Assembly (NCBI RefSeq): GCF_000786105.1
Contig: NZ_JTEV01000023.1
Span: 1 to 45,450 of the forward strand
Length of the DNA: 45,450 nucleotides
Source of the DNA: Bdellovibrio sp. ArHS
GTDB taxonomy: Bacteria > Bdellovibrionota > Bdellovibrionia > Bdellovibrionales > Bdellovibrionaceae
Reading direction: 5' to 3'
Positions within the stretch are counted from its first letter, which is position 1, and each line of letters starts with the position of its first letter. The translations under genes were made by a program, and so were the position numbers. Positions 10,140 to 45,225 of this stretch are shown one piece after another. The notes beneath the pieces were generated by a model. It worked only from the letters and a program-made list of their open reading frames with translations. It had not been told where the DNA came from and ran no database searches.

Positions 10140-10180
10140 TCCTAGGAGAACAAAACACTTTATTCTCCTAGGATTTTTTT
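10140..10180 (+). terminator. Rho-independent terminator after the transglycosylase gene
   Basis: An 11-bp perfect stem TCCTAGGAGAA/TTCTCCTAGGA (10140-10150/10163-10173) is followed directly by seven Ts. Confidence 0.92.
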
Positions 10181-10308: not shown

Positions 10309-10983
10309 ATGAAGTATCAGTACTATCTGTTCAGTCCGCGCATTCTGACGGACGAAACAGCTAAGCTTACCAATCAAGTCTACGAAACATGGAAGCAAGT
10401 CTACGACGGAATTTTTGAGTCCTTACACACTGATGATTTCTATCGCAACGAAGTGATCACGTGCTTGAAGGATCTAGAGACAGATCAAGTGCTGGCTTTC
10501 CATATGTACAGCGTTTTCGATGATCGTGCGAAGGCCCATCTGGAACACCGATACATGGAGCCATTCGCCCCTGAACTGGTAAAACGATTCCAGGCGGAAG
10601 GCGCGCACACCTATATGTCTTTGGAATACTTAGGTGTGAATACGGCTTATCAATTCAGCAAACCGGGATTTAAAGTCGCCGATATCATCAGCGCTTTAAG
10701 CATGAAGGCCTTCGAGGCCTCCCCTTGGGACGGTCTTTTGGCTGTCGCTCGCATGGACTATAAGGTGCATGAAAAGGCCCAAAGGTTCGGTATGCGCCCG
10801 ATGGGCGAAATCATGCGCGCTCAATATCCTTGTCAGCTACTTTTCCTTAAAAAGAACGAAACGAAAGAGCTCGCAGATCCATTTTTAGCCAATATGGTCA
10901 ACGAACTGTGGAATACCAAAATCAACCACACGACCCTGATCAGTGATCAGCCAGCCCAACCACGCCATTTAAAAATCGCTTAA
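10309..10983 (+). CDS. GNAT-fold acyltransferase, N-acyl amino acid synthase-like
   Basis: The protein has 224 residues and is cytosolic. The central part looks like a GNAT fold: TYMSLEYLGVNTAYQ as the core strand, a following helix with KVADIISALSMKAFEAS, then a strand and helix VARMDYKVHEKAQRFGMRP that matches the end of acyl-CoA/ACP acyltransferases. FeeM-type N-acyl amino acid synthases and AHL-synthase-like proteins share this organisation, but the substrate cannot be read from the sequence. The start at 10309 follows a G-rich site (TTGGGGGAA); a TTG nine codons upstream is less likely. It lies 23 bp before a heme-oxygenase-like diiron gene, so the two probably act in one small-molecule pathway. 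Confidence 0.55.
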   Translation: MKYQYYLFSPRILTDETAKLTNQVYETWKQVYDGIFESLHTDDFYRNEVITCLKDLETDQVLAFHMYSVFDDRAKAHLEHRYMEPFAPELVKRFQAEGAHTYMSLEYLGVNTAYQFSKPGFKVADIISALSMKAFEASPWDGLLAVARMDYKVHEKAQRFGMRPMGEIMRAQYPCQLLFLKKNETKELADPFLANMVNELWNTKINHTTLISDQPAQPRHLKIA

Positions 10984-11006
10984 TAAAACTAACGAAAGAA
11001 GGACGT

Positions 11007-11651
11007 ATGGAGAAAAAACAATTAGCAACAATTATGGATCGCGAGATCAAAGCTTTGGGTGATAAAATTATGGACTGCCCATGGGAAAATCCAGAATTTT
11101 ATAAAGGTTGGTTGGCTCAGACCTACTACCTCATCCGTCACACCACGAAGTTTTTGGCGCTGTCGGCGGCTCGCCTGCCCGTCGACGATCGCGATCATCA
11201 CTATGCCATGATTCATCATATTCAAGAGGAACTTAACCATGACTTCATGCCCTTGAAGGATTTGGAAAATTTAGGAGGAACTTTAGAGCAATATCCAGAG
11301 TTGCCAGAAACAGAAATGCTTCGTCAATTGCAGTACTACTGGATCGAGTTTGAAAATCCACTTTCTTTGTGTGGATATGCCTTTCTTCTGGAAGGCGCAG
11401 CGAAGTTCCATGGCCCTCGCCTGCTGGAAGTTTTAGAGCAACACTACGGAAAGAAGGCGACCGTTCATCTTAGAGTGCACTCTGTCGTCGATCAGGACCA
11501 TTACGAGGAAGGCAAAAAATTCTTAGAAACACTTTCAGAAAAAGATTGTGATTATATCGCCAAGAATCTGTTACAGGCTTCCGTGCTTTACACTCGGCTT
11601 GTCGAAAGACTCGCAGAACAGTGTAAAAACAAACATCGCAAAGCCGCTTAA
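11007..11651 (+). CDS. Heme-oxygenase-like diiron protein (HDO/iron-containing redox enzyme family)
   Basis: This is a 214-residue, all-helical protein. Spaced ligand residues fit the HDO scaffold: E75 and H78 in QEELNHDFMPLKDL, E129 in FLLEGAA, then H158, D162 and H165 in HLRVHSVVDQDH. Relatives on this fold include TenA-like proteins and diiron oxidases such as UndA and BesC, which oxidise fatty acids or amino acids. With the acyltransferase 23 bp upstream and a good GAAGGA site before the ATG, the pair looks like a two-step biosynthetic operon. Whether iron is bound and what is oxidised is unknown. A bidirectional terminator follows. Confidence 0.68.
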   Translation: MEKKQLATIMDREIKALGDKIMDCPWENPEFYKGWLAQTYYLIRHTTKFLALSAARLPVDDRDHHYAMIHHIQEELNHDFMPLKDLENLGGTLEQYPELPETEMLRQLQYYWIEFENPLSLCGYAFLLEGAAKFHGPRLLEVLEQHYGKKATVHLRVHSVVDQDHYEEGKKFLETLSEKDCDYIAKNLLQASVLYTRLVERLAEQCKNKHRKAA

Positions 11652-11660
11652 GAAAAGACA

Positions 11661-11690
11661 AAAAAAAGGCACCCCTCGGGTGCCTTTTTT
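11661..11690. terminator. Bidirectional terminator between convergent genes
   Basis: The stem GGCACCC/GGGTGCC (11668-11674/11678-11684), loop CTC, is flanked by seven As and six Ts. It can end both the diiron operon (+) and the PAS-like gene (-). Confidence 0.9.
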
Positions 11691-11697
11691 CTAAGAA

Positions 11698-12369
11698 TTA
11701 ATTCAGAATTTGTTCTGCCGTTTCAATCACTAGCAAACCTTCAACTCGTTTATTACGCTTCAAAGGGCTGATCAACTTCACTTGTTGCATAAAGGACTGT
11801 CCGTCTTCTTTCACTTCTTTGAGAAGTGCCGGTTCGATTCCGGGAATATAGCTGTCCGCGATCTCGCCCGTAGCGACCTTCATCCCCGCGGCAAAAATCT
11901 TCATCGTTACATCCGCATTTCTTTCGTACAGATTCCACCACTCAACCGAATAAAGCTCTTCAAGAGTGTAAGAACAGCACTCGAAAAATCTGAAGTTACG
12001 ATAAAGCTGTTTATTATCAACCGAGTATATTTCAACCAGGTCCTCGTCCGTCATATGATTAAAAACATCCGCGCGGGGAACGAAATCCAATTTACGGAAA
12101 GCTCGCCACACAAAACTGGAATTGTCTTTTAACTTATAACCCTCGGCAATTTGCTCTTCGCACAACTCTTTAAAGAAAGTGATACTTGTGACCACCTCTG
12201 CCATTTTCTCGTAAGACAGAGCTCGGAAATGAGGCAACCCCTCAAGATAGGGTTTTCTATAGACACCTTCCGTCGAAAACATCATGCAAATTTTTTGCGA
12301 TGCTAACTTAAACTTTTCAACAAGCATGGCCACATCCTGATGGCTTACTTTTACAACTTCGATAGACAT
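11698..12369 (-). CDS. PAS-like protein, paralogue of the gene at 43243-43899
   Basis: This is a 223-residue cytosolic protein with no close family I can name. Residues ~1-115 look helical. The C-terminal half reads like a PAS fold: QLYRNFRFFECCSYTLEEL resembles the 'n.af....GYt.eEl' core, then WWNLYERNADVTMKIF and VATGE resemble the 'l.hpdD...v......GE' segment, and KEDGQSFMQQVKL with EGLLVIETAEQIL resembles the terminal strands. There is no output domain. Similarity to the 43243-43899 protein runs through most of the length, and both end in ILN. The start at 12369 follows AGGGG; an upstream start at 12390 is possible. Confidence 0.72.
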   Translation of the reverse strand: MSIEVVKVSHQDVAMLVEKFKLASQKICMMFSTEGVYRKPYLEGLPHFRALSYEKMAEVVTSITFFKELCEEQIAEGYKLKDNSSFVWRAFRKLDFVPRADVFNHMTDEDLVEIYSVDNKQLYRNFRFFECCSYTLEELYSVEWWNLYERNADVTMKIFAAGMKVATGEIADSYIPGIEPALLKEVKEDGQSFMQQVKLISPLKRNKRVEGLLVIETAEQILN

Positions 12370-12430
12370 TTTCGACCCCTGCAAACTCACCTTTCGCGAG
12401 TAAGCTAAAGATAACCAGCATTTTGCTTTT

Positions 12431-35436: not shown

Positions 35437-36486
35437 TTGTCCACATATGTTGAATTAGAAATTCAGAATTTGCTCGATGAAGGCACGGACCTACCAAAAG
35501 TGGCCGAGCAACTGATTCAAAATTTAGAATCCTCCGCCGAGGGACTTACTCTCGACAATATCACCTCCTTAGCAAAATTTTTAATTCAAGCACAACAACC
35601 GCATCTGCTGATCGAATTTATTTTACGCCACATCGACAACGAATCCTTCCCCATCCCCTGGCCTTATTTTCTGGAAGCCCTGGGCGCCGTGAGCTCCGAA
35701 TTGGACGAAAAAACCGTCAAGGCGTTATTGGAAGGAATTTCCGAAGACAGCGCGGAATCAGAAGCGGGTCGTTCCCTAGCTTTACAAGGCGCGATCCCTG
35801 AATTGGGCGAGTGGCGCGGCAATCGCAAATATAAAATTCACAAGGACTACTTAAACAACAAACGCCAACTTCTGGATCAGTTGATCACACTGCGCACGCA
35901 ACAGCTTTACGAGCAAGAAAAACACCTTTTACAAAGACTGCAAAAACTTTATCCCGGTGATGCGGAAATTCGTGCGGAAGTAAATGAGCACAAACAAAGA
36001 TACGCGCTTGAGATTTTACAGCGTCGCACGCCGAAAGCTCGTCAGTCCAAACCTGAGGACTTCACGCCGAAAGATCCCGAAGTGGAAAAGGCCATGTCGG
36101 CCTTAATGCAAAGTCTGCATGAACATGCGGCGGAAAATCCGGATATGGCTTTTGATTTTGCCGTGGCCGCTTTTATGATGGAAAATTATGAAGCCTCGTT
36201 GTCTTTGCTTTCCATGAGTGAAGAAACCGATGCTTTAATATGGTTCCGTTTGGAAGTGTTGTTGAAGTGTCGTCGTTTTGTCGAGCTTTTGAACGAACTG
36301 ACTCAGGCTGAAATCATTTTTGCGCATGAACCGGAGACTTTTTTCGCCACGGCTTATCTGCGTGCCCAAGCTCTTTGGGGGTTGGGGCAAAAACACACGG
36401 CAATAGAAGTGATGGAAGGTCTGATGGCCTCTCGCCCCCACTACCGAGCCGCAAGTGCTCTTTTGAGCATCTGGAGCGGTCAGTGA
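35437..36486 (+). CDS. TPR-like helical protein preceding tamB
   Basis: This 349-residue, largely helical cytosolic protein has repeats reminiscent of TPR units (NLESSAEGLTLDNITSLAKF, MAFDFAVAAFMMENYEASLS, ALWGLGQKHTAIEVMEG). No catalytic motif is seen. The start is TTG with a GGAGG site 7 nt before it; there is no better ATG in frame nearby. The GTG of tamB overlaps its TGA, so its product is made together with TamB and TamA and may assist envelope assembly or simply be co-regulated. Confidence 0.75.
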   Translation: MSTYVELEIQNLLDEGTDLPKVAEQLIQNLESSAEGLTLDNITSLAKFLIQAQQPHLLIEFILRHIDNESFPIPWPYFLEALGAVSSELDEKTVKALLEGISEDSAESEAGRSLALQGAIPELGEWRGNRKYKIHKDYLNNKRQLLDQLITLRTQQLYEQEKHLLQRLQKLYPGDAEIRAEVNEHKQRYALEILQRRTPKARQSKPEDFTPKDPEVEKAMSALMQSLHEHAAENPDMAFDFAVAAFMMENYEASLSLLSMSEETDALIWFRLEVLLKCRRFVELLNELTQAEIIFAHEPETFFATAYLRAQALWGLGQKHTAIEVMEGLMASRPHYRAASALLSIWSGQ

Positions 36487-39400
36487 AAAGAGCGTTTTGG
36501 ATTTTGATCACGCCCCTGGCAGGTTTTTTGGTTTTATGGCTGATCGGCTCAATGCTTATTGCGCCGAAACTGGAAGCCTGGGCTCTTGACAAAATTCAGA
36601 CTTATTCAGACACCTCGTTGCCCGTCAAAATTCGTGCGGAAAAACTACAACTGAAACTTTTCAAGCCGTCTTTGGCTGTGGAAGGAATTCGGGTCGAGGC
36701 GAAAGACGAACTGGCCGAAACACTGAAACCGATCCGCGTCGGCAGCGTTCGGGTCTTCGTTGATTTCTTTCATCTTCTGAGCGGCAGGGTCACCTTGTCG
36801 GCCGTCGTCGTCGAGTCCCCCGACGTCGAGGTGAACATTGATCCTTTCATCAAGAGCAAAACGCCTCCGAAAGAACTTCCTTTGGATGCTTTGTTCAATC
36901 AGTTGGAACAACTTCCGCTCAATCGTCTGTTTGTGCAGAATCTTCACCTCCGCATCACTTCCAAAGAACTCAAGCTTCAAGGCGAAATTCAAAGTGGCGA
37001 TCTGATTACGACCAATATGGGGAAACATCTGACGGCCAAAGCCAATGTTCCTCAATTGAATCTGCATCTTGAAAAACTTGGACATTTTCAAGGCTCACTG
37101 GACACCCATCTGTATTTGACTCGACAAAGTTTACGCATCATTCAGTTAGGACTGCGTCTGGATGAATCTGAAGTTCTGGTGCGGGGCGAACTGACGCGCT
37201 TTCAGCGTGTCACCATCAAACCTTCGGGTCTTTTGGATGTGTCTGCCCGCATTCATCTAAGTGATCTCCATACAGAGCTTACAAAAATTCGACCTGATTT
37301 GAAAATCCCCCCTTTTGCGGGCGAAGTCAGTTTGGATGCGGAAGCCCGTTTTGATGGTTTAGATGATGTGCGCGGAAAGGCTGACATCAACACCCGCGCC
37401 TTGACGGTGGATCAATTCCAATTGGGGGATGCTCGCATCCAGGGGGAATATCGCGATAGAAAGATTTCTCTTTCAGAAATGCGCGTCCAACATCCCGCCG
37501 GCGAAGCGGTGATGACGAAGTCCCAAATCACCGTGGGTCAGAACTTCGACTTTAAGACCCGCATTGCTGTGCAAGATTTGGATCTGCAAAAACTGTTTGT
37601 CAGTCTGAATCTCAGTGACATCCCCGTGGGTGTCGGCCTTCAGGGTGAACTGCCCTGCGAAGGACATCTTCAGCCAAGCTTTGAAGTCGTTTGTACTGAG
37701 GCTAACCTGAAGGCGGAAAAACTTTGGGTGAAAGCGTCTTTGGCCCCGAAAGCCACTGAAATTCTGGACGTCGACAGCTTGAGTGCTCAGGGCCAAGTCA
37801 AAGTCACCACTGCCGCGGTCTCATATGCCGCGATCCTCAAAGTGGGCGACAGTGTCGGCACCACCGATGGCGTCATTGATTTTGCCAATGGCTTCAAAAT
37901 TAATTTTAAAACTGACAAACTAGATTTTAAGAATGTGAAAAATCTGGCGCACCTGAAAATGGAAGGTGTCGCCAGCATGGAAGGCAGCACTTCCGGAGAT
38001 TCCCATGCGGCGGTCTTCGATATGAAGGTCAATGCCCGCGAATTCACTTTCGAAGATTTTTACCTAGGCAATTTGCTGTCCCAATTGAAATACCGCAACG
38101 GCCGTCTGATCTTTGAAGATTTGGCTGGAGCCATTCGCAAAACCCAGTATTTGGGCGATCTTGAAGTCAATCTGGATAAAAACACTTTGCACGGAGAATT
38201 TAGCATCCCCACCGCAGAACTTCCGGATGTGGCTTCGGTCTTCACGCGCATTTATAAATTCCCCATTGATGTGCAAGGACAAGGCTCGGCCAAAGCCAAA
38301 GTTCACGGACCGCTTAATTTCTGGAAGATGAATTATGAAGTCCAATCCGCTTTTAAAAACGTCAGCGTCGGTCCTGAAACCTTCGATAGCTTGAACTTCA
38401 ACGTCAGCGCCCTTGACGGCAACATCCACGCTGACAAAGTATCCCTGCAACGCGCAGGCTCGACTGTGACGGTCCAAGGTGGTATCAGCTCGACCCAGAT
38501 TTTAAATCTGAATGCGGACGGAAAGAACTTCAAACTGGAAGAGTCCGACACCATCAGCAGAATCAATTCTAGCATCGCGGGTAATCTTAATTTTGCTGCG
38601 GAGTTAGCGGGACCAGTTAAAAATCCCCAGGTGCTTTTAAAGGGAGCTGTCACAGATTCTTTCTTTGAAGACCAGGAAATCCCTAATTCCAATTTCATCG
38701 TCCGTCTTAACCGCGACACTCTTTTTACGCAACTGAGCCTTTTTGGCGGCAAAGTCCAAGGTGAATTCCAACTGCCCTTTGAAAAAGGTCGCGCGCCTTT
38801 GATGGTAAAAATGCAAACCCGCGACTGGAACTATTCCACCCTCTTGGGATTAATCGGTGGCGCCAACCTTGCCAGTGAATACCACTCGTCGCTCACCTCT
38901 ACCGTGGATCTGCGTTCAGAGAGTGGCGACATCTTTAAGTCGACGGGAAAAGTGCACATCGACACTCTGGAGCTTCGCCGTGGCACTTTGAGTTTAAAAA
39001 ATCCTCAGCCCGTGGATATTTCGACCGACAATGGCACCGTGGTTATTCGCAACTTCCGGCTGGAGGGACCAAATACCGAGATGGCCATTCGTGGTGAAAA
39101 CTTCAACGCGCAAAACATGAATATTGCCGTCAGTATGAATTCGGATCTGCGCCTGATGCATATCTTTATGCCTTTCCTGGAAGACCTGGGCGGCCCGATC
39201 AAACTTTCCACGAAGCTGACCGGCTCTGTAACCAAACCGCAAATCCTGGGAACTCTGAACGCCAACAACACCTATCTAAAAATAAAAGGTTTTCCGCATC
39301 CGCTGGAGCGTTTGAACGTGGACGTCGTGTTTTCCCAAAGTCGTGTGATGGTGAACTCGATTCGGGGAACCATTGCGGGTGGGATTTTGACAGGCGACGG

Positions 39401-40448
39401 TGGTATCGTGATCAATGAAATCAAAGATATTCCGACGACCATTCGCCTGCGCTTGGAAAATGTCACCATGAATGTTCCGGAAAAAGTGCGCACCAACGGC
39501 AATGCCGATCTGGTTTTTTCGGGACGATGGTTCCCCTTCACCCTATCGGGAACTTACGTCGTCAACAGCGCCTTGGTTGAAAAAGAATTCACCGAAGAAA
39601 GTGGCGGCGCCACGGGCGTCAAACAAAGTTATTATCTTCCCAAAGTGATCCGCGAAAGCCGCTTCGAACCGGTTCTTTTAGATATCAGTATCGTCATGAA
39701 TCGCAATATCACTGTTAAGAACTCTCTTTTAGATGGAGCGGTCAGCGGGAATCTGCAAGTCAAAGGCCCGCCCACCAATCCTGTGCTTTTAGGTCGCATT
39801 AACGCCGAAAAGAACACCAAGCTGATTTTCAAAGATAAAATTTTTCAGATCAAAAACGGGACTATTGATTTCACGGACCCCGAGGAAATCAATCCCAGTC
39901 TTTACATTTCCGCCGAATCGCGAATCAATGAGTACGACATCACACTACTCGCACAGGGAACCGCCAAAAACCTGACAATTCATCTGAATAGCATTCCCCC
40001 GCTACAAGAGCAGGATATTATTTCTTTGATTGCCTTAGGGGTGACGACCTCGGCAATGGACCAGAATGTCCAGTCGCGAGAACAAGCACAACAATTAGGC
40101 GCAGAGATTGGCGGCGCCGTGCTGGCCAAACCTATTAATAAAACGATCGAGGCCACCGGCTTCAGTTTAGCGGTGACATCGGAATACGATTCCACTCGTA
40201 ACATCAGCGTTCCGAAAATCACCTTAAGCCGCAGTCTTTCCAACCGTGTGAAGGTTTCTGGCAGCCGTCCGGTGGGGAACTCACAATCCTATGATTTAAA
40301 ACTGGAATACCTCATCAACAGCAACTTCACCGCCGTGGGATCTTTTGAAAGTCGCGGCAATGAGGATGATACGACTTTGCAAACAACGCAGCCGGCGACT
40401 CAGAGTATTTTTGGTCTGGATCTAGAGTTCAAAAGGGAGTTCAAATAA
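36483..40448 (+). CDS. tamB: TamB-like translocation and assembly protein (DUF490/AsmA-like)
   Basis: The protein has about 1321 residues. One N-terminal membrane anchor (FWILITPLAGFLVLWLIGSML) is followed by an AsmA-like region and a very long beta-rich periplasmic body that would form the hydrophobic groove of TamB/YhdP bridge proteins, thought to carry phospholipids to the outer membrane. The conserved C-terminal DUF490 part includes VKGPPTNPVLLGRINAEKN, GTIDFTDPEEINPSLYISAE, IHLNSIPPLQEQDIISLIAL and TLSRSLSNRVKVSG. The GTG start at 36483 overlaps the previous stop; the reading from 36375 would run through the upstream gene. It overlaps the tamA-like gene by 1 bp. Confidence 0.93.
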   Translation: MKRAFWILITPLAGFLVLWLIGSMLIAPKLEAWALDKIQTYSDTSLPVKIRAEKLQLKLFKPSLAVEGIRVEAKDELAETLKPIRVGSVRVFVDFFHLLSGRVTLSAVVVESPDVEVNIDPFIKSKTPPKELPLDALFNQLEQLPLNRLFVQNLHLRITSKELKLQGEIQSGDLITTNMGKHLTAKANVPQLNLHLEKLGHFQGSLDTHLYLTRQSLRIIQLGLRLDESEVLVRGELTRFQRVTIKPSGLLDVSARIHLSDLHTELTKIRPDLKIPPFAGEVSLDAEARFDGLDDVRGKADINTRALTVDQFQLGDARIQGEYRDRKISLSEMRVQHPAGEAVMTKSQITVGQNFDFKTRIAVQDLDLQKLFVSLNLSDIPVGVGLQGELPCEGHLQPSFEVVCTEANLKAEKLWVKASLAPKATEILDVDSLSAQGQVKVTTAAVSYAAILKVGDSVGTTDGVIDFANGFKINFKTDKLDFKNVKNLAHLKMEGVASMEGSTSGDSHAAVFDMKVNAREFTFEDFYLGNLLSQLKYRNGRLIFEDLAGAIRKTQYLGDLEVNLDKNTLHGEFSIPTAELPDVASVFTRIYKFPIDVQGQGSAKAKVHGPLNFWKMNYEVQSAFKNVSVGPETFDSLNFNVSALDGNIHADKVSLQRAGSTVTVQGGISSTQILNLNADGKNFKLEESDTISRINSSIAGNLNFAAELAGPVKNPQVLLKGAVTDSFFEDQEIPNSNFIVRLNRDTLFTQLSLFGGKVQGEFQLPFEKGRAPLMVKMQTRDWNYSTLLGLIGGANLASEYHSSLTSTVDLRSESGDIFKSTGKVHIDTLELRRGTLSLKNPQPVDISTDNGTVVIRNFRLEGPNTEMAIRGENFNAQNMNIAVSMNSDLRLMHIFMPFLEDLGGPIKLSTKLTGSVTKPQILGTLNANNTYLKIKGFPHPLERLNVDVVFSQSRVMVNSIRGTIAGGILTGDGGIVINEIKDIPTTIRLRLENVTMNVPEKVRTNGNADLVFSGRWFPFTLSGTYVVNSALVEKEFTEESGGATGVKQSYYLPKVIRESRFEPVLLDISIVMNRNITVKNSLLDGAVSGNLQVKGPPTNPVLLGRINAEKNTKLIFKDKIFQIKNGTIDFTDPEEINPSLYISAESRINEYDITLLAQGTAKNLTIHLNSIPPLQEQDIISLIALGVTTSAMDQNVQSREQAQQLGAEIGGAVLAKPINKTIEATGFSLAVTSEYDSTRNISVPKITLSRSLSNRVKVSGSRPVGNSQSYDLKLEYLINSNFTAVGSFESRGNEDDTTLQTTQPATQSIFGLDLEFKREFK

Positions 40449-43246
40449 TGCTTCCGCAAAAAACTCTTCTGTCCCTTTTGCTATTTGTTTTTCTGACGAC
40501 CGGGGCGCAGGCGCAACCTAAAAAAATGTTGCGTTATGAAACCTTGCCAACAGAGGTGCAAACCGATCTGGTCAAAAGATTTCCGCAGATCGAAAAAGAG
40601 CCCCTCAGTCTGGATCAGCTTGATGATATTATCCGTTATCTTCAATTGAAGCCCGAATTCGAAAATGTGCGGGTGCTGGATGACGGCAATAGTTCTCCGT
40701 TCCGGTTGGATTTTCAGCGCACGCGAACGATTTCAAAGATCACCATCGAGGGAATCTCAAGTATTTCTGAAAATGAAGCCGGAAGTGTTTTCGGCGTGAA
40801 GGCCGGGGATGTTTTTGATCAGCAAAATCTGATTGAAGGCGGCGAAAAGATTCGTCAGCTTTATGCCGAACGTGGTTATCTGAATGCGGTGGTTGACATC
40901 GCGATGCCGGCCGAGTCCGCAGATAAAGTCTCGGTGGAAATCAAGGTCACGGAAAACAAGCAGACGCGCGTACGCAATATTGTTCTGCAAAGCGCGAATG
41001 AAGCCCTGAACCGCGATCTGGGCAAACAACTGAAGGGCTTTTTAAAAGATCCTTACACAGAAGCGACGCTGAATGAGCTGCAAAAAGACGCCCGGGAATT
41101 CTTAAAAGAAAAGCGCTATGTCCGCGCGGATTTAACGGGCCCGACGACTGATTTCAGTCCTGACGAATCGGAAGTGACACTTATTTATCGCGTGGAAAAG
41201 ACGGAACGCTACACTTTCGAATACGAGGGAGTTCGTCTTTTGCGCGTGCGCGACATCGAAAATGCTCTGGATCTGGATAACTACTATTCGGCCAGCCCGA
41301 CGATTGGCTCTGAATTGGCACAGAAGATCCGCGGCTATTATCTGGGCAAGGGACATGCCCGCGCCGAAGTGCGAGCGGAAGAACACGAAGGGCGCGATCC
41401 CTTCCATCGTCGTATTGTTTTTAAAATAGATGAAGGACCGCAAATCAAAATTCAGGCCGTCAATATTACGGGTCGCATCAGCAAACGTCCCCGCTATTAC
41501 GTGAATTTTATTGAAGAACACAGCTCTAAAATCGTCGACAAAGGTCTTTATAATAAAGAGGACTTCGACACCGGCGTTCAGAATCTGATTCTGGAACTGC
41601 AAAACAATGGCTATCTGCAGGCCAAACTGATTTCCACCCGCACGCAATACAACCGCGAACGCGACGCCGTCACTTTGCACGTTAATTTGGATGAAGGCCC
41701 GCTGACCCAGGTGGAAGAGGTGGAGTTCAGCGGCAATAAGGACTTTTCAGATACCGAGCTGCTTGCGGTGACGGGCTTGCGTCCCGGAGCTTTGCGCCTG
41801 GGGCAGATTGAACTGGCGATCACCCGACTCAAAGAATTTTATCATGAGCGTGGTTATATCGAAATGCTGCTTTTGAATGAAAAGCAGGATTTGGTGACTT
41901 ACGACCAAAGCAACACCAAGGCCTCTTTGCACTTTAAAATTTTGGAAGGACCGCAGGTGCGCGTAGCCTCCATCGTGCTTGAAGGAAACTCTTTCACCCG
42001 AGATTCCGTTCTGTTGAAGGAACTGGAATTTAGTGAAGGTGATTTGGTGACGCCTTATAAAGTTCAGGAATCCATTGCCCGTCTGCAAAGAACTGGATTT
42101 TTCAGCACGGTAGAAATTCACACTTTGGAAGAAAAAACCAACGTCGCCAATCGCACCGTCGTCGTGAACGTGTCAGAGCGAGACCCCGGCCTTTTGACAT
42201 TTGGTGCGGGAGCCACGAATGAAAGAAAGCTGACCCTGCGTGGATACGCAGGTATCGCCTATCGCAACATTATGGGCACCGGGCGCGGAGCTTCGTTGCG
42301 GGTGGAAGGAAATTATAACATCGCGGATTTAAAGTATCTGGAGCACAAAATCGTTTTCGGATATTTAGAACCCTATCTTTTAGGCTCGCGTTTGCGCGGT
42401 CGTATTAATATCACCCGTTCTACGACTGTGACTGATTATGAAATCCATCAGGCCTCTGAGGTCAACTCTACGACGTATTCGGTGGAAAAGGACTTCACCT
42501 CGCACGTTTTAGGGGTTTGGGATGTCTGGTCACTGGCGACCATTCGTGACTTTGGTATCGACAACGTCTATCCGTTCCCGGAAGATGAACAGAACATCGC
42601 CACAACCGGTCCGACGTTGGATTTGGATTTCCGTGACAATCCTTTCAATCCAACGAAAGGAAACTTCACTCGTTGGAACGCCGAATACTCAGCTCCTTTC
42701 TTGGGAAGCACAGGAACCATCGAATACTGGAAAACCACACTGAGCTTTACGCACTACACGTCGCTGTTCAATATTCAAAAACAACCGGTCGTGTGGGCAA
42801 ACCAGGTGCGCGGTGGTTATCTTCAAAACCTGAGCAGTCGCAATGATGGTGGCGTACCTTGGGATAAAAAAGGATTTACTTTAGGGGGCCAATCCACTTT
42901 GCGTGGTTATGAAGCCGGGACTCAGGAAGTCTTTCCGAATCGTGACGACTTGGGACTTTCTGATAACGAAAAAACCTACTACCTGAAAACAGAAGCCGTG
43001 ATGTATTTGGTGAAGTCAGAGTTCCGCTTCCCCGTTTACGGCAATCTAGGCGGAGCCGTCTTCTATGATGGCGGCTACGTCAAAATTAAAGATTTGGATT
43101 TTGCCGACTACTATCGCGACTCTGTCGGGTTTGGTATTCGCTATAACACGCCGGTCGGTCCTTTAAGTCTGGAGTGGGCATGGAAACTGGATGCTCGCCC
43201 TAATGAAGAACCTTGGCGCTTCCATCTTTCAATCGGTACCTTTTAA
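40448..43246 (+). CDS. tamA: TamA/BamA-family outer membrane protein with extended POTRA region
   Basis: The protein has 932 residues with a signal peptide ending in TGAQAQ. About 570 residues of POTRA repeats follow; recurring LYAERGYLNAVV, YYLGKGHARAEV, LQNNGYLQAKLI, FYHERGYIEMLL and LQRTGFFSTVEI helix-strand units mark five to seven of them. The C-terminal ~340-residue Omp85 barrel has the lid motif GGQSTLRGYE (compare VRGF) and ends in aromatic Phe. E. coli TamA has three POTRAs in 577 residues and BamA five in ~800. Adjacency to tamB (TAATG overlap) supports the Tam pairing, though a BamA-like role cannot be excluded. Its stop overlaps that of the opposing gene. Confidence 0.88.
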   Translation: MLPQKTLLSLLLFVFLTTGAQAQPKKMLRYETLPTEVQTDLVKRFPQIEKEPLSLDQLDDIIRYLQLKPEFENVRVLDDGNSSPFRLDFQRTRTISKITIEGISSISENEAGSVFGVKAGDVFDQQNLIEGGEKIRQLYAERGYLNAVVDIAMPAESADKVSVEIKVTENKQTRVRNIVLQSANEALNRDLGKQLKGFLKDPYTEATLNELQKDAREFLKEKRYVRADLTGPTTDFSPDESEVTLIYRVEKTERYTFEYEGVRLLRVRDIENALDLDNYYSASPTIGSELAQKIRGYYLGKGHARAEVRAEEHEGRDPFHRRIVFKIDEGPQIKIQAVNITGRISKRPRYYVNFIEEHSSKIVDKGLYNKEDFDTGVQNLILELQNNGYLQAKLISTRTQYNRERDAVTLHVNLDEGPLTQVEEVEFSGNKDFSDTELLAVTGLRPGALRLGQIELAITRLKEFYHERGYIEMLLLNEKQDLVTYDQSNTKASLHFKILEGPQVRVASIVLEGNSFTRDSVLLKELEFSEGDLVTPYKVQESIARLQRTGFFSTVEIHTLEEKTNVANRTVVVNVSERDPGLLTFGAGATNERKLTLRGYAGIAYRNIMGTGRGASLRVEGNYNIADLKYLEHKIVFGYLEPYLLGSRLRGRINITRSTTVTDYEIHQASEVNSTTYSVEKDFTSHVLGVWDVWSLATIRDFGIDNVYPFPEDEQNIATTGPTLDLDFRDNPFNPTKGNFTRWNAEYSAPFLGSTGTIEYWKTTLSFTHYTSLFNIQKQPVVWANQVRGGYLQNLSSRNDGGVPWDKKGFTLGGQSTLRGYEAGTQEVFPNRDDLGLSDNEKTYYLKTEAVMYLVKSEFRFPVYGNLGGAVFYDGGYVKIKDLDFADYYRDSVGFGIRYNTPVGPLSLEWAWKLDARPNEEPWRFHLSIGTF

Positions 43247-43899
43247 TTAAGAATCGGTTTGCAACGGGCAATGACTAGATAAGCTGCGGTCTTGCCCTCT
43301 TTCAACAAGGGCATTGCATACAACACACGCACACTCACAGCCAGTCTTTCCAAGGAAGCCTTTTCAATCAGAAGATGCTCTTCCACATCAATCTCTAAGG
43401 TCTTCTTTTCACCCGTGATTATCGACGTTAAAGTTGCAACCAGCTTGGCCGTCACCTCTGGATCTCGCTCATAAAGATGAATCCAGGGCCGCGTATAGAT
43501 GTCTTCGATAGTGTAGCTCGCATATTGAAAATAACTGAAACTTCTAAAAAGCTGAATATTGGACAGATTATAAATCTCGGTCAGATATTCGTTCTGCACG
43601 AGTTCTAAAATCTTTGGGTCGTATTGGTATCCATAAAACTGGAGCGCCTTACGGACAAATAGTGAGGCATCCTTGATTTCGCCCCCCACGTCATGAACGG
43701 ACTTGCAGATTCTGATATAGTTCTCAAGGTTTTCCACGGCATGGAGCTGTTCGGTTTCAGAAAGCTGCCGGAAATAAGGCAAAGAATCCTGACTGTAAGG
43801 ACGAACGACAAACCCCTCTTGTTCGATCACTTCACAAAGCTCTTCACTGAACGTTTTGAATTTGGCGATCGCCGAAGATGCGACTTGTAATGAATCCAT
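43243..43899 (-). CDS. PAS-like protein, paralogue of the gene at 11698-12369
   Basis: This 218-residue cytosolic protein matches the 11698-12369 protein along most of its length. Shared blocks are LPYFRQLSETEQ, YNLSNIQLFRSFSYFQYASYT, then WIHLYERDPEVTAK and TGE, and the ILN end. The N-terminal ~115 residues are helical and the rest fits a PAS fold without an output domain. No ribosome site is visible before the ATG at 43899. It is tail-to-tail with the tamA-like gene, sharing TTAA bases of both stops. The function is unknown; a small sensor or adaptor is inferred. Confidence 0.72.
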   Translation of the reverse strand: MDSLQVASSAIAKFKTFSEELCEVIEQEGFVVRPYSQDSLPYFRQLSETEQLHAVENLENYIRICKSVHDVGGEIKDASLFVRKALQFYGYQYDPKILELVQNEYLTEIYNLSNIQLFRSFSYFQYASYTIEDIYTRPWIHLYERDPEVTAKLVATLTSIITGEKKTLEIDVEEHLLIEKASLERLAVSVRVLYAMPLLKEGKTAAYLVIARCKPILN

Positions 43900-44350: not shown

Positions 44351-44451
44351 CATTGTCGGAAGTAAATTACTTGGTGTTTTTTTACAAAATCTTCCTTTGA
44401 GATCAAAGTAATTTCATGTTTTCATTCCATCATGCACAGGAAATGACCGCC

Positions 44452-45225
44452 ATGGAAAAGACGCAACATAGCCTCTGGACAGAAAAATTTCACATTACAA
44501 GTTTGCTAGTGAACCCCTTAGGTCGCTTGGGACTTTACGGAGCCCTCAACTTGCTTCAAGAAACCGCTTGGATGCATGCAGAAAAATTGGGCTTCGGTAT
44601 GAGTGACATGGATAAAGATGGCATGTTCTGGGTGCTAACGCGACAATCATTACGCATGAAAACATGGCCGCGATTTGGGGAAAACATCAGTGTGCAAACA
44701 TGGTTACGCCCTCCTGAAGGGGCCTTTGTCGCGCGCGAATTCGCCCTTCTTGACAGTCAGAACAACGAGATCGGCCTGTGTACGACCAGTTGGTTGGCGT
44801 TGGATCGGCGAACAAAAAAAATCCTGCCTTCGCAACAGTTACGTGACTGGTCTGCCCTTACACAATCCCGAGCAACAGGTCTGATCGCCGAGAAAATTCC
44901 CGTGACCGGCGAGTATGAGAAATTGGCGAAGTACCGGGTTCGAAATTCTGACCTCGATATCAACCAACACGTAAATAATACGAAGTATGCGCAGTGGATT
45001 TTGGATGCGATTCCCTATGAACTTCACAAAGCTTTGCGGTTGAAATCCTACTCGGTCAACTTTCTGGCGGAAACCCATCTTGGGGACGAAGTTCAAGTGG
45101 ACCGCAGCTGCTCCTCCACCTCGGTGGAGATTGCGTCCGAAGGCAGCACCGCGTATCGCGGGGTTCGCTTGAGTGATGGCAAAGTTTTATTCACCGCTCT
45201 TCTGGAATGGGAGAAACACTCATGA
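44452..45225 (+). CDS. Acyl-ACP thioesterase-like hotdog-fold protein
   Basis: The protein has 257 residues with two hotdog domains. The N-terminal half has LGLYGALNLLQETAWMHAEKLG and WVLTRQSLRMKTWP; the C-terminal half has YRVRNSDLDINQHVNNTKYAQW, the plant FatA/FatB-like catalytic Asn-His segment. Such enzymes release free fatty acids from acyl-ACP, which may serve lipid turnover. The ATG at 44452 has AGGAA nine nt upstream; starts at 44443 and 44416 are possible. A 4-bp overlap (ATGA) couples it to the next gene. Confidence 0.87.
   Translation: MEKTQHSLWTEKFHITSLLVNPLGRLGLYGALNLLQETAWMHAEKLGFGMSDMDKDGMFWVLTRQSLRMKTWPRFGENISVQTWLRPPEGAFVAREFALLDSQNNEIGLCTTSWLALDRRTKKILPSQQLRDWSALTQSRATGLIAEKIPVTGEYEKLAKYRVRNSDLDINQHVNNTKYAQWILDAIPYELHKALRLKSYSVNFLAETHLGDEVQVDRSCSSTSVEIASEGSTAYRGVRLSDGKVLFTALLEWEKHS

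Follow-up and report, generated by a model that had tools for sequence, protein, structure and literature searches.

The window analysed here is a stretch of 45,450 nucleotides from Bdellovibrio sp. ArHS (assembly GCF_000786105.1, contig NZ_JTEV01000023.1, positions 1 to 45,450 of the forward strand). It contains two adjacent genes, one for a GNAT-fold acyltransferase and one for a heme-oxygenase-like diiron oxidase (HDO), which face a convergent gene for a protein with a predicted PAS fold (family A4). Taken together, the data suggest that the Bdellovibrionota have a diversified small-molecule module, of which these three genes are one copy. Cell-cell signalling of the autoinducer type is the most likely function, and we give it roughly even chances.

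The two open reading frames lie where the preliminary description placed them, 23 bp apart (Table 1). The A4 protein has 223 residues counted from the ATG at 12369, and its reading frame reaches a GTG at 12390. The terminators that had been proposed for either side of the pair are both matched by stable hairpins. The one between the HDO gene and the A4 gene is a probable bidirectional terminator and was the only one flagged by a terminator pattern scan; the one upstream came from folding. The description of the pair as a self-contained two-gene unit does not hold, because the convergent gene (11698-12390, minus strand) is a recurrent third member of the neighbourhood, a position taken in other lineages by a histidine kinase. 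The genome from which the window comes has a single copy each of the GNAT and HDO genes.

Table 1. Features of the module and of its paralogue in the window
Feature	Position	Strand	Basis
Terminator-like hairpin separating the module from the SLT transglycosylase gene upstream of it	10140-10180	+	Hairpin 10140-10173, then T run; -18 kcal/mol, z -3.8
GNAT-fold N-acyltransferase, 224 aa, predicted to be acyl-homoserine lactone (AHL) synthase/FeeM-like in fold and extent	10309-10983	+	AlphaFold2 model, VIA-align
Acyltransferase C-terminal tail K-I-A	10972-10980	+	Ala-ending enrichment
HDO, 214 aa	11007-11651	+	PF14518, PDB profile matches, invariant ligands
HDO C-terminal tail K-A-A	11640-11648	+	Ala-ending enrichment
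Hairpin with A and T runs between the HDO gene and the convergent PAS gene	11662-11690	.	-19 kcal/mol, z -4.7
Convergent third gene, family A4, N-terminal helices and C-terminal PAS fold, proposed sensor	11698-12369	-	AlphaFold2 model, Foldseek, recurrence
Second PAS-fold (A4) paralogue, away from the pair	43243-43899	-	A4 profile match, E 8.8e-50

The pair is not peculiar to this strain. There are 64 GNAT matches within 3 kb of an HDO match, in 55 of the 144 genomes of the class; as in all the largest searches, these figures rest on the matches listed, and many of the assemblies are fragmentary. The GNAT gene precedes the HDO gene in 57 of the 64 pairs and the spacing is nearly always below 200 bp. 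One of the 64 is a fused GNAT-HDO protein of 455 aa encoded beside a PAS gene, found in one genome whose assembly has an estimated contamination of about 8%. An independent scan of named genomes, with a profile built from a seven-sequence HDO subset, found the GNAT gene adjoining the HDO gene in 17/17 loci, nearly all from Bdellovibrio- or Bacteriovorax-type records. At the level of the phylum, 137 of 369 genomes have a match to the GNAT profile. The pair also occurs in the Bacteriovoracia, and a complete three-gene module is carried on plasmid pBdHM1 of Bdellovibrio sp. HM001. No published account of a GNAT-HDO pair was found in the open-access literature.

The AlphaFold2 model of the first protein (pLDDT, the predicted local distance difference test, 90.3; pTM, the predicted template-modelling score, 0.88) has GNAT topology with a low-confidence C-terminal tail, and its Foldseek matches are GNATs, including RpaI, BjaI, EsaI, LasI and TofI. 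On this model we regard the GNAT fold as settled. The best VIA-align matches are RpaI (Z 15.4 over 192 of the 224 residues, 3.2 Å), BjaI (Z 15.1, 189 residues) and FeeM (2g0b; Z 14.9, 170 residues). Ordinary GNATs score at most one Z unit below RpaI, yet mostly align over 140-165 residues, so that the predicted AHL-synthase- or FeeM-like character comes from structural extent. The resemblance to these synthases proposed in the preliminary description stands for the fold and its extent; the sequence matches the Pfam model of neither family. Pfam gives no meaningful match for the window GNAT or for 34 of its relatives, and the GNAT alignment found no sequence relative among solved structures. 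Conserved positions in the alignment include W28, F44, R46, Y82, R148, G161 and W201.

Besides this family, two other groups of genes in the genus were observed. Another GNAT subfamily has no HDO or PAS neighbour at the three loci where it was seen (L154, L162 and L079); at the first two of these the adjoining gene codes for a protein of about 1200-1330 aa. A separate family of about 295 aa matches the FeeM model PF21926 in 21 of 24 genus genomes (e.g. G004:C1:329373-329693), mostly with scores under the curated cut-off, and has no match in the assembly from which the window comes.

The second protein matches PF14518 (Haem_oxygenas_2) with E 3.6e-12, above the curated gathering cut-off. A profile of 26 relatives, compared with the PDB, finds 3dde (heme-oxygenase-like fold; E 1.9e-20), MboA (9ypi; E 2.7e-7) and, weakly, UndA (E 0.078). 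The ligands E75, H78, E129, H158, D162 and H165 are present exactly as first described, and all six are invariant in the 26 aligned relatives and also in a set of 42. They make up the three-histidine/three-carboxylate set described for the HDO family (PMC13108848). Y32, Q38, D85, G123 and Y195 are likewise invariant in the 26 relatives. Judged by its sequence, the second protein belongs to the heme-oxygenase-like diiron proteins and has kept the full set of ligands. Elsewhere a distant HDO domain ends proteins of 606-617 aa (L149, 4323-6146; L150, 4450-6270; L151, 3016-4869), the remainder of which is KAS-III-like in L149. A DUF6999 gene adjoins in L149 and a fatty-acid hydroxylase gene lies two genes on in L151; these loci appear to be another lipid-type HDO context.

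Clustering of the neighbours at 19 loci gave a recurrent family beside the pair, A4, of which the convergent gene is the window member. The A4 profile finds the family in 94 of the 144 genomes of the class, often in several copies, and among the matches listed an A4 gene lies within 2 kb of 59/122 HDO genes and 43/84 GNAT genes. The usual arrangement is GNAT and HDO in one direction with the PAS gene convergent, often 20-160 bp from the HDO gene. Pfam PAS models do not recognise the family (a single member gave PAS_9 at E 0.22), and its alignment found no sequence relative among solved structures. The AlphaFold2 model (pLDDT 92.7) consists of N-terminal helices and a C-terminal domain of the order strand-strand-helices-three strands. 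Its top 50 Foldseek matches are all PAS- or LOV-containing structures (best E 1.7e-4); VIA-align scores are modest (Z 5.5-7), with two autoinducer receptors, VqmA and RpfR, among the matched structures (Z about 6). A4 is thus modelled as a PAS-fold protein.

In the Bacteriovoracia A4 is often missing and a histidine kinase gene often adjoins the GNAT gene (L177, L181, L182, L186, L195 and others), several of the kinases having multiple hydrophobic stretches; kinase identity was tested with Pfam in a subset of loci. A PAS gene, a histidine-kinase gene or both lie within 2.5 kb in 83 of 98 distinct GNAT loci, a count in which the kinase model is generic and would also catch unrelated kinases and the flanks are short at some loci. 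Synthase-like and sensor-like genes are therefore linked in these neighbourhoods; the linkage is one of genes, and a ligand-receptor relation would be our reading of it.

Other observations concern the sensor genes away from this arrangement. The A4 paralogue in the window is flanked by an Omp85/TamB pair (36375-43246) and an acyl-acyl carrier protein (ACP) thioesterase-like gene (44416-45225), and is possibly a receptor without its own synthase. A4 triplets with no nearby synthase occur at L153 (4717-6863) and G019:C113:88-2147. A group of Bacteriovoracia copies (L169, L170 and L072-L076) forms a stable block with a sensor kinase gene upstream and, where checked, a gene for a trypsin-like protease downstream.

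The enzyme that accompanies the GNAT is variable. A recognised tailoring enzyme is encoded within 2.5 kb in 89 of the 98 distinct GNAT loci. A fatty-acid desaturase (PF00487) replaces or joins the HDO in L156, L158, L159, L163, L166 and L174. The replacing or additional partner is a FAD_binding_4 oxidase in L176 and L192, and in L148 this domain is fused to the GNAT; it is an acyl-coenzyme A (CoA) dehydrogenase in L165 and L197, a flavin adenine dinucleotide (FAD)-dependent oxidoreductase in L167, a methyltransferase in L014 and L160, and an adenosine monophosphate (AMP)-ligase in L155. Because the HDO can be replaced by a desaturase, the acyl part is probably the site of oxidation. The desaturase loci lend strength to the original proposal that an acyl transfer precedes an iron-dependent oxidation, of which the chemistry and the product are still conjectural.

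The enzymes of the module also have a common C-terminus. In the aligned relatives both the GNAT and the HDO end in a variable linker followed by K-[AVI]-A or a similar sequence. In a redundancy-reduced set, 132 of 174 enzymes (76%) end in alanine compared with 19 of 368 bystander genes (5%; Fisher p 2e-66): 68/89 GNATs, 51/66 HDOs and 13/19 desaturases, but 3/66 PAS proteins. Of the HDOs, 77% end in Ala and 59% in Ala-Ala, where the corresponding bystander figures are 5% and 1.4%; the last residue is Ala in 84% of the aligned GNATs. The background, drawn from 18 regions sampled in a closely related genome and from the bystander genes in the module loci, is similarly low: in the close relative 6% of 309 genes end in Ala and 0.3% in Ala-Ala. 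Partners of other families carry the tail as well (e.g. HVSKFAA, VKVAA, KDKAA and KKLAA). In only two of 72 GNAT-HDO pairs is the terminal Ala missing from both proteins, and within a pair the two tails show no correlation beyond their high frequency. In the closely related genome G004, one gene that does not belong to the module (L094, 19309-19989, minus strand, 226 aa) ends in KKAA and may be a further user of the tail.

A flexible tail ending in Ala-Ala is a plausible degron for recognition by ClpX. The GNAT tail is modelled as disordered (pLDDT 51-65), and the Bdellovibrio transfer-messenger RNA (tmRNA) tag, GNDYALAA, itself ends in ALAA. The K-A-A end of the HDO agrees with ClpXP C-motif 1 (-AA) on a flexible tail, and the K-I-A end of the GNAT agrees only in part, its penultimate residue being Ile. 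Judging from its sequence, the tail may serve these enzymes as a common recognition tag: a ClpXP-type degron is the likeliest form, and a docking tag the alternative. The presence of the tail on the enzymes and its absence from the sensor would suit a circuit able to shut down synthesis yet go on sensing.

Docking, in which the tail would bring the enzymes together on one scaffold or at one membrane site, is compatible with any reading of the pathway; it has to be considered because the third-last residue is Lys and use of the tail is restricted to a pathway. The enzymes of this one pathway that carry it include desaturases that are likely to be membrane-bound, the third-last residue is Lys or Arg, and a disordered tail would suit docking too. 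No scaffold gene recurs in the loci on neighbour clustering, however, and the terminal Ala-Ala resembles the organism's own degradation tag; we consider docking the lesser possibility, albeit a serious one.

From the folds, the conserved ligands, the linkage of the genes, the partner swaps and the tail enrichment we infer substrates, an order of reactions, a receptor role and a tail function as follows. An amine or amino acid would be acylated by the GNAT, with acyl-CoA or acyl-ACP as the donor, and the HDO would then oxidise the N-acyl product by desaturation, hydroxylation or C-C/N oxidation. Copies with a desaturase, FAD oxidase, acyl-CoA dehydrogenase, methyltransferase or AMP-ligase would make different signal structures. 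The convergent PAS protein would be the intracellular receptor or sensor, replaced in several Bacteriovoracia copies by a histidine kinase that often has several predicted membrane spans, and a degron-type tag would let the cell shut off synthesis as a whole. The module thus looks like an undescribed signalling system, with a product that is predicted from the genes.

Several results weigh against signalling. Pfam PF00765 (Autoind_synth, LuxI) matches neither the window GNAT nor its 34 relatives, and PF21926 (FeeM) leaves the window GNAT family unmatched. Z scores do not separate the AHL synthase from ordinary GNATs (15.4 versus 14.8), and the synthase is favoured by aligned length alone. No output domain is recognised in the A4 protein, which also occurs away from the pair and so could sense redox state, oxygen or a generic ligand. 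Among the matches listed there are 37 HDO clusters without a GNAT or PAS partner, although a more sensitive profile recovers partners for some of them, and the GNAT and HDO sequences co-diverge only weakly (Spearman 0.21 versus a permutation maximum of 0.13). The third-last Lys of the tail is not a canonical ClpX determinant. We put signalling at about even chances because the gene pattern expected of lipid remodelling or of a specialised metabolite would look very similar.

In a pathway for a membrane aminolipid or a surfactant, the GNAT would act like OlsB and N-acylate an amino acid, the acyl chain would be altered by the HDO or desaturase, and the PAS protein or kinase would control membrane composition. 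The desaturases as swappable partners agree with this, as do an AMP-ligase gene upstream in two loci, which fits lipid chemistry, and the HDO fused elsewhere to a KAS-III-like synthase near a fatty-acid hydroxylase. However, no O-acyltransferase is recognised beside the pair, most loci contain a GNAT, one or two oxidative enzymes, a sensor and nothing more, and several divergent copies per genome (as at L155) are commoner for signals than for bulk lipids, so that we regard such a pathway as unlikely. A small specialised-metabolite cluster, making for instance an antibacterial or metal-binding N-acyl compound for predation with the PAS protein or kinase merely as pathway regulator, seems rather improbable. 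HDO relatives include MboA of mangotoxin biosynthesis, the extra enzymes vary and one copy is plasmid-borne, but no exporter or resistance gene recurs among the neighbours and the most regular companion is the PAS protein. That the neighbourhood is an accident of common ancestry joining functionally unlinked genes is very unlikely: several Bdellovibrio genomes do have an mreC-rodA-SLT context in common around the pair, but fusion and the many independent contexts, with several copies per genome, another class and a plasmid, speak against it.

Returning to signalling, we suggest, more tentatively than for the module itself, that these predators may have a modular signalling language, with a common N-acyl synthase core, swappable oxidative tailoring that sets the structure of the signal, and a swappable sensor, either a PAS protein or a histidine kinase. 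A single C-terminal tag would mark the enzymes, with the sensor exempt, to be removed or assembled together. Bdellovibrio and related predators are under study as living antibacterials. No autoinducer synthase is known from Bdellovibrio; such a system would provide testable signalling chemistry. It would also demonstrate a pathway-wide C-terminal tag, a feature not known to have been described in bacteria. 'Wolf-pack' group predation had not been observed in Bdellovibrio in the laboratory (PMC3189940, 2011). About a dozen members of the HDO family have been validated (PMC13108848), and the module would be a new setting for that family.

Among known systems, the LuxI-family AHL synthases (RpaI, BjaI, EsaI, LasI) are similar in that the GNAT fold extends over nearly the whole chain and the gene lies beside that of a putative receptor. 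The module differs from LuxI systems in having no Autoind_synth match, a PAS partner instead of LuxR and an oxidative tailoring enzyme. The fold also resembles that of the FeeM-type N-acyl amino acid synthases (2g0b), but the FeeM model misses the module GNAT and matches other genes of the genus. The HDO has the invariant ligand pattern and PF14518 domain of UndA, BesC, SznF and MboA, with a sequence relation to MboA and weakly to UndA; unlike these enzymes, it goes with a GNAT and a PAS protein and ends in a K-x-A tail. A4 has the PAS fold of the autoinducer receptors VqmA (with 3,5-dimethylpyrazin-2-ol, DPO) and RpfR (with a fatty acid), from which it differs as a stand-alone protein of about 220 aa in which helix-turn-helix or GGDEF/EAL output is not recognised.

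The closest counterpart found lies in Gammaproteobacteria (Vibrio, Citrobacter and Pseudoalteromonas): an operon for a thermostable hemolysin, an AMP-binding protein, an HDO (annotated as an iron-containing redox enzyme) and a short-chain dehydrogenase/reductase (SDR), in which the related HDO has about 28-31% identity. Genes for a response regulator and an ATP-binding protein follow in two of the four loci read, and in the Pseudoalteromonas operon the HDO and the AMP-binding protein form a single fused protein. The hemolysin, which we take to be GNAT-like, has no detectable profile similarity to the module GNAT. In L143-L146 (Vibrio, Pseudoalteromonas and Citrobacter plasmids) the 'hemolysin' label may hide a biosynthetic acyltransferase. 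The operon differs further in its extra ligase and SDR, in having no annotated PAS gene and in proteins that lack Ala-Ala tails. Because the hemolysin shows no profile similarity and the proteins have no tail, we regard the operon as analogous to the Bdellovibrionota module rather than as the same system.
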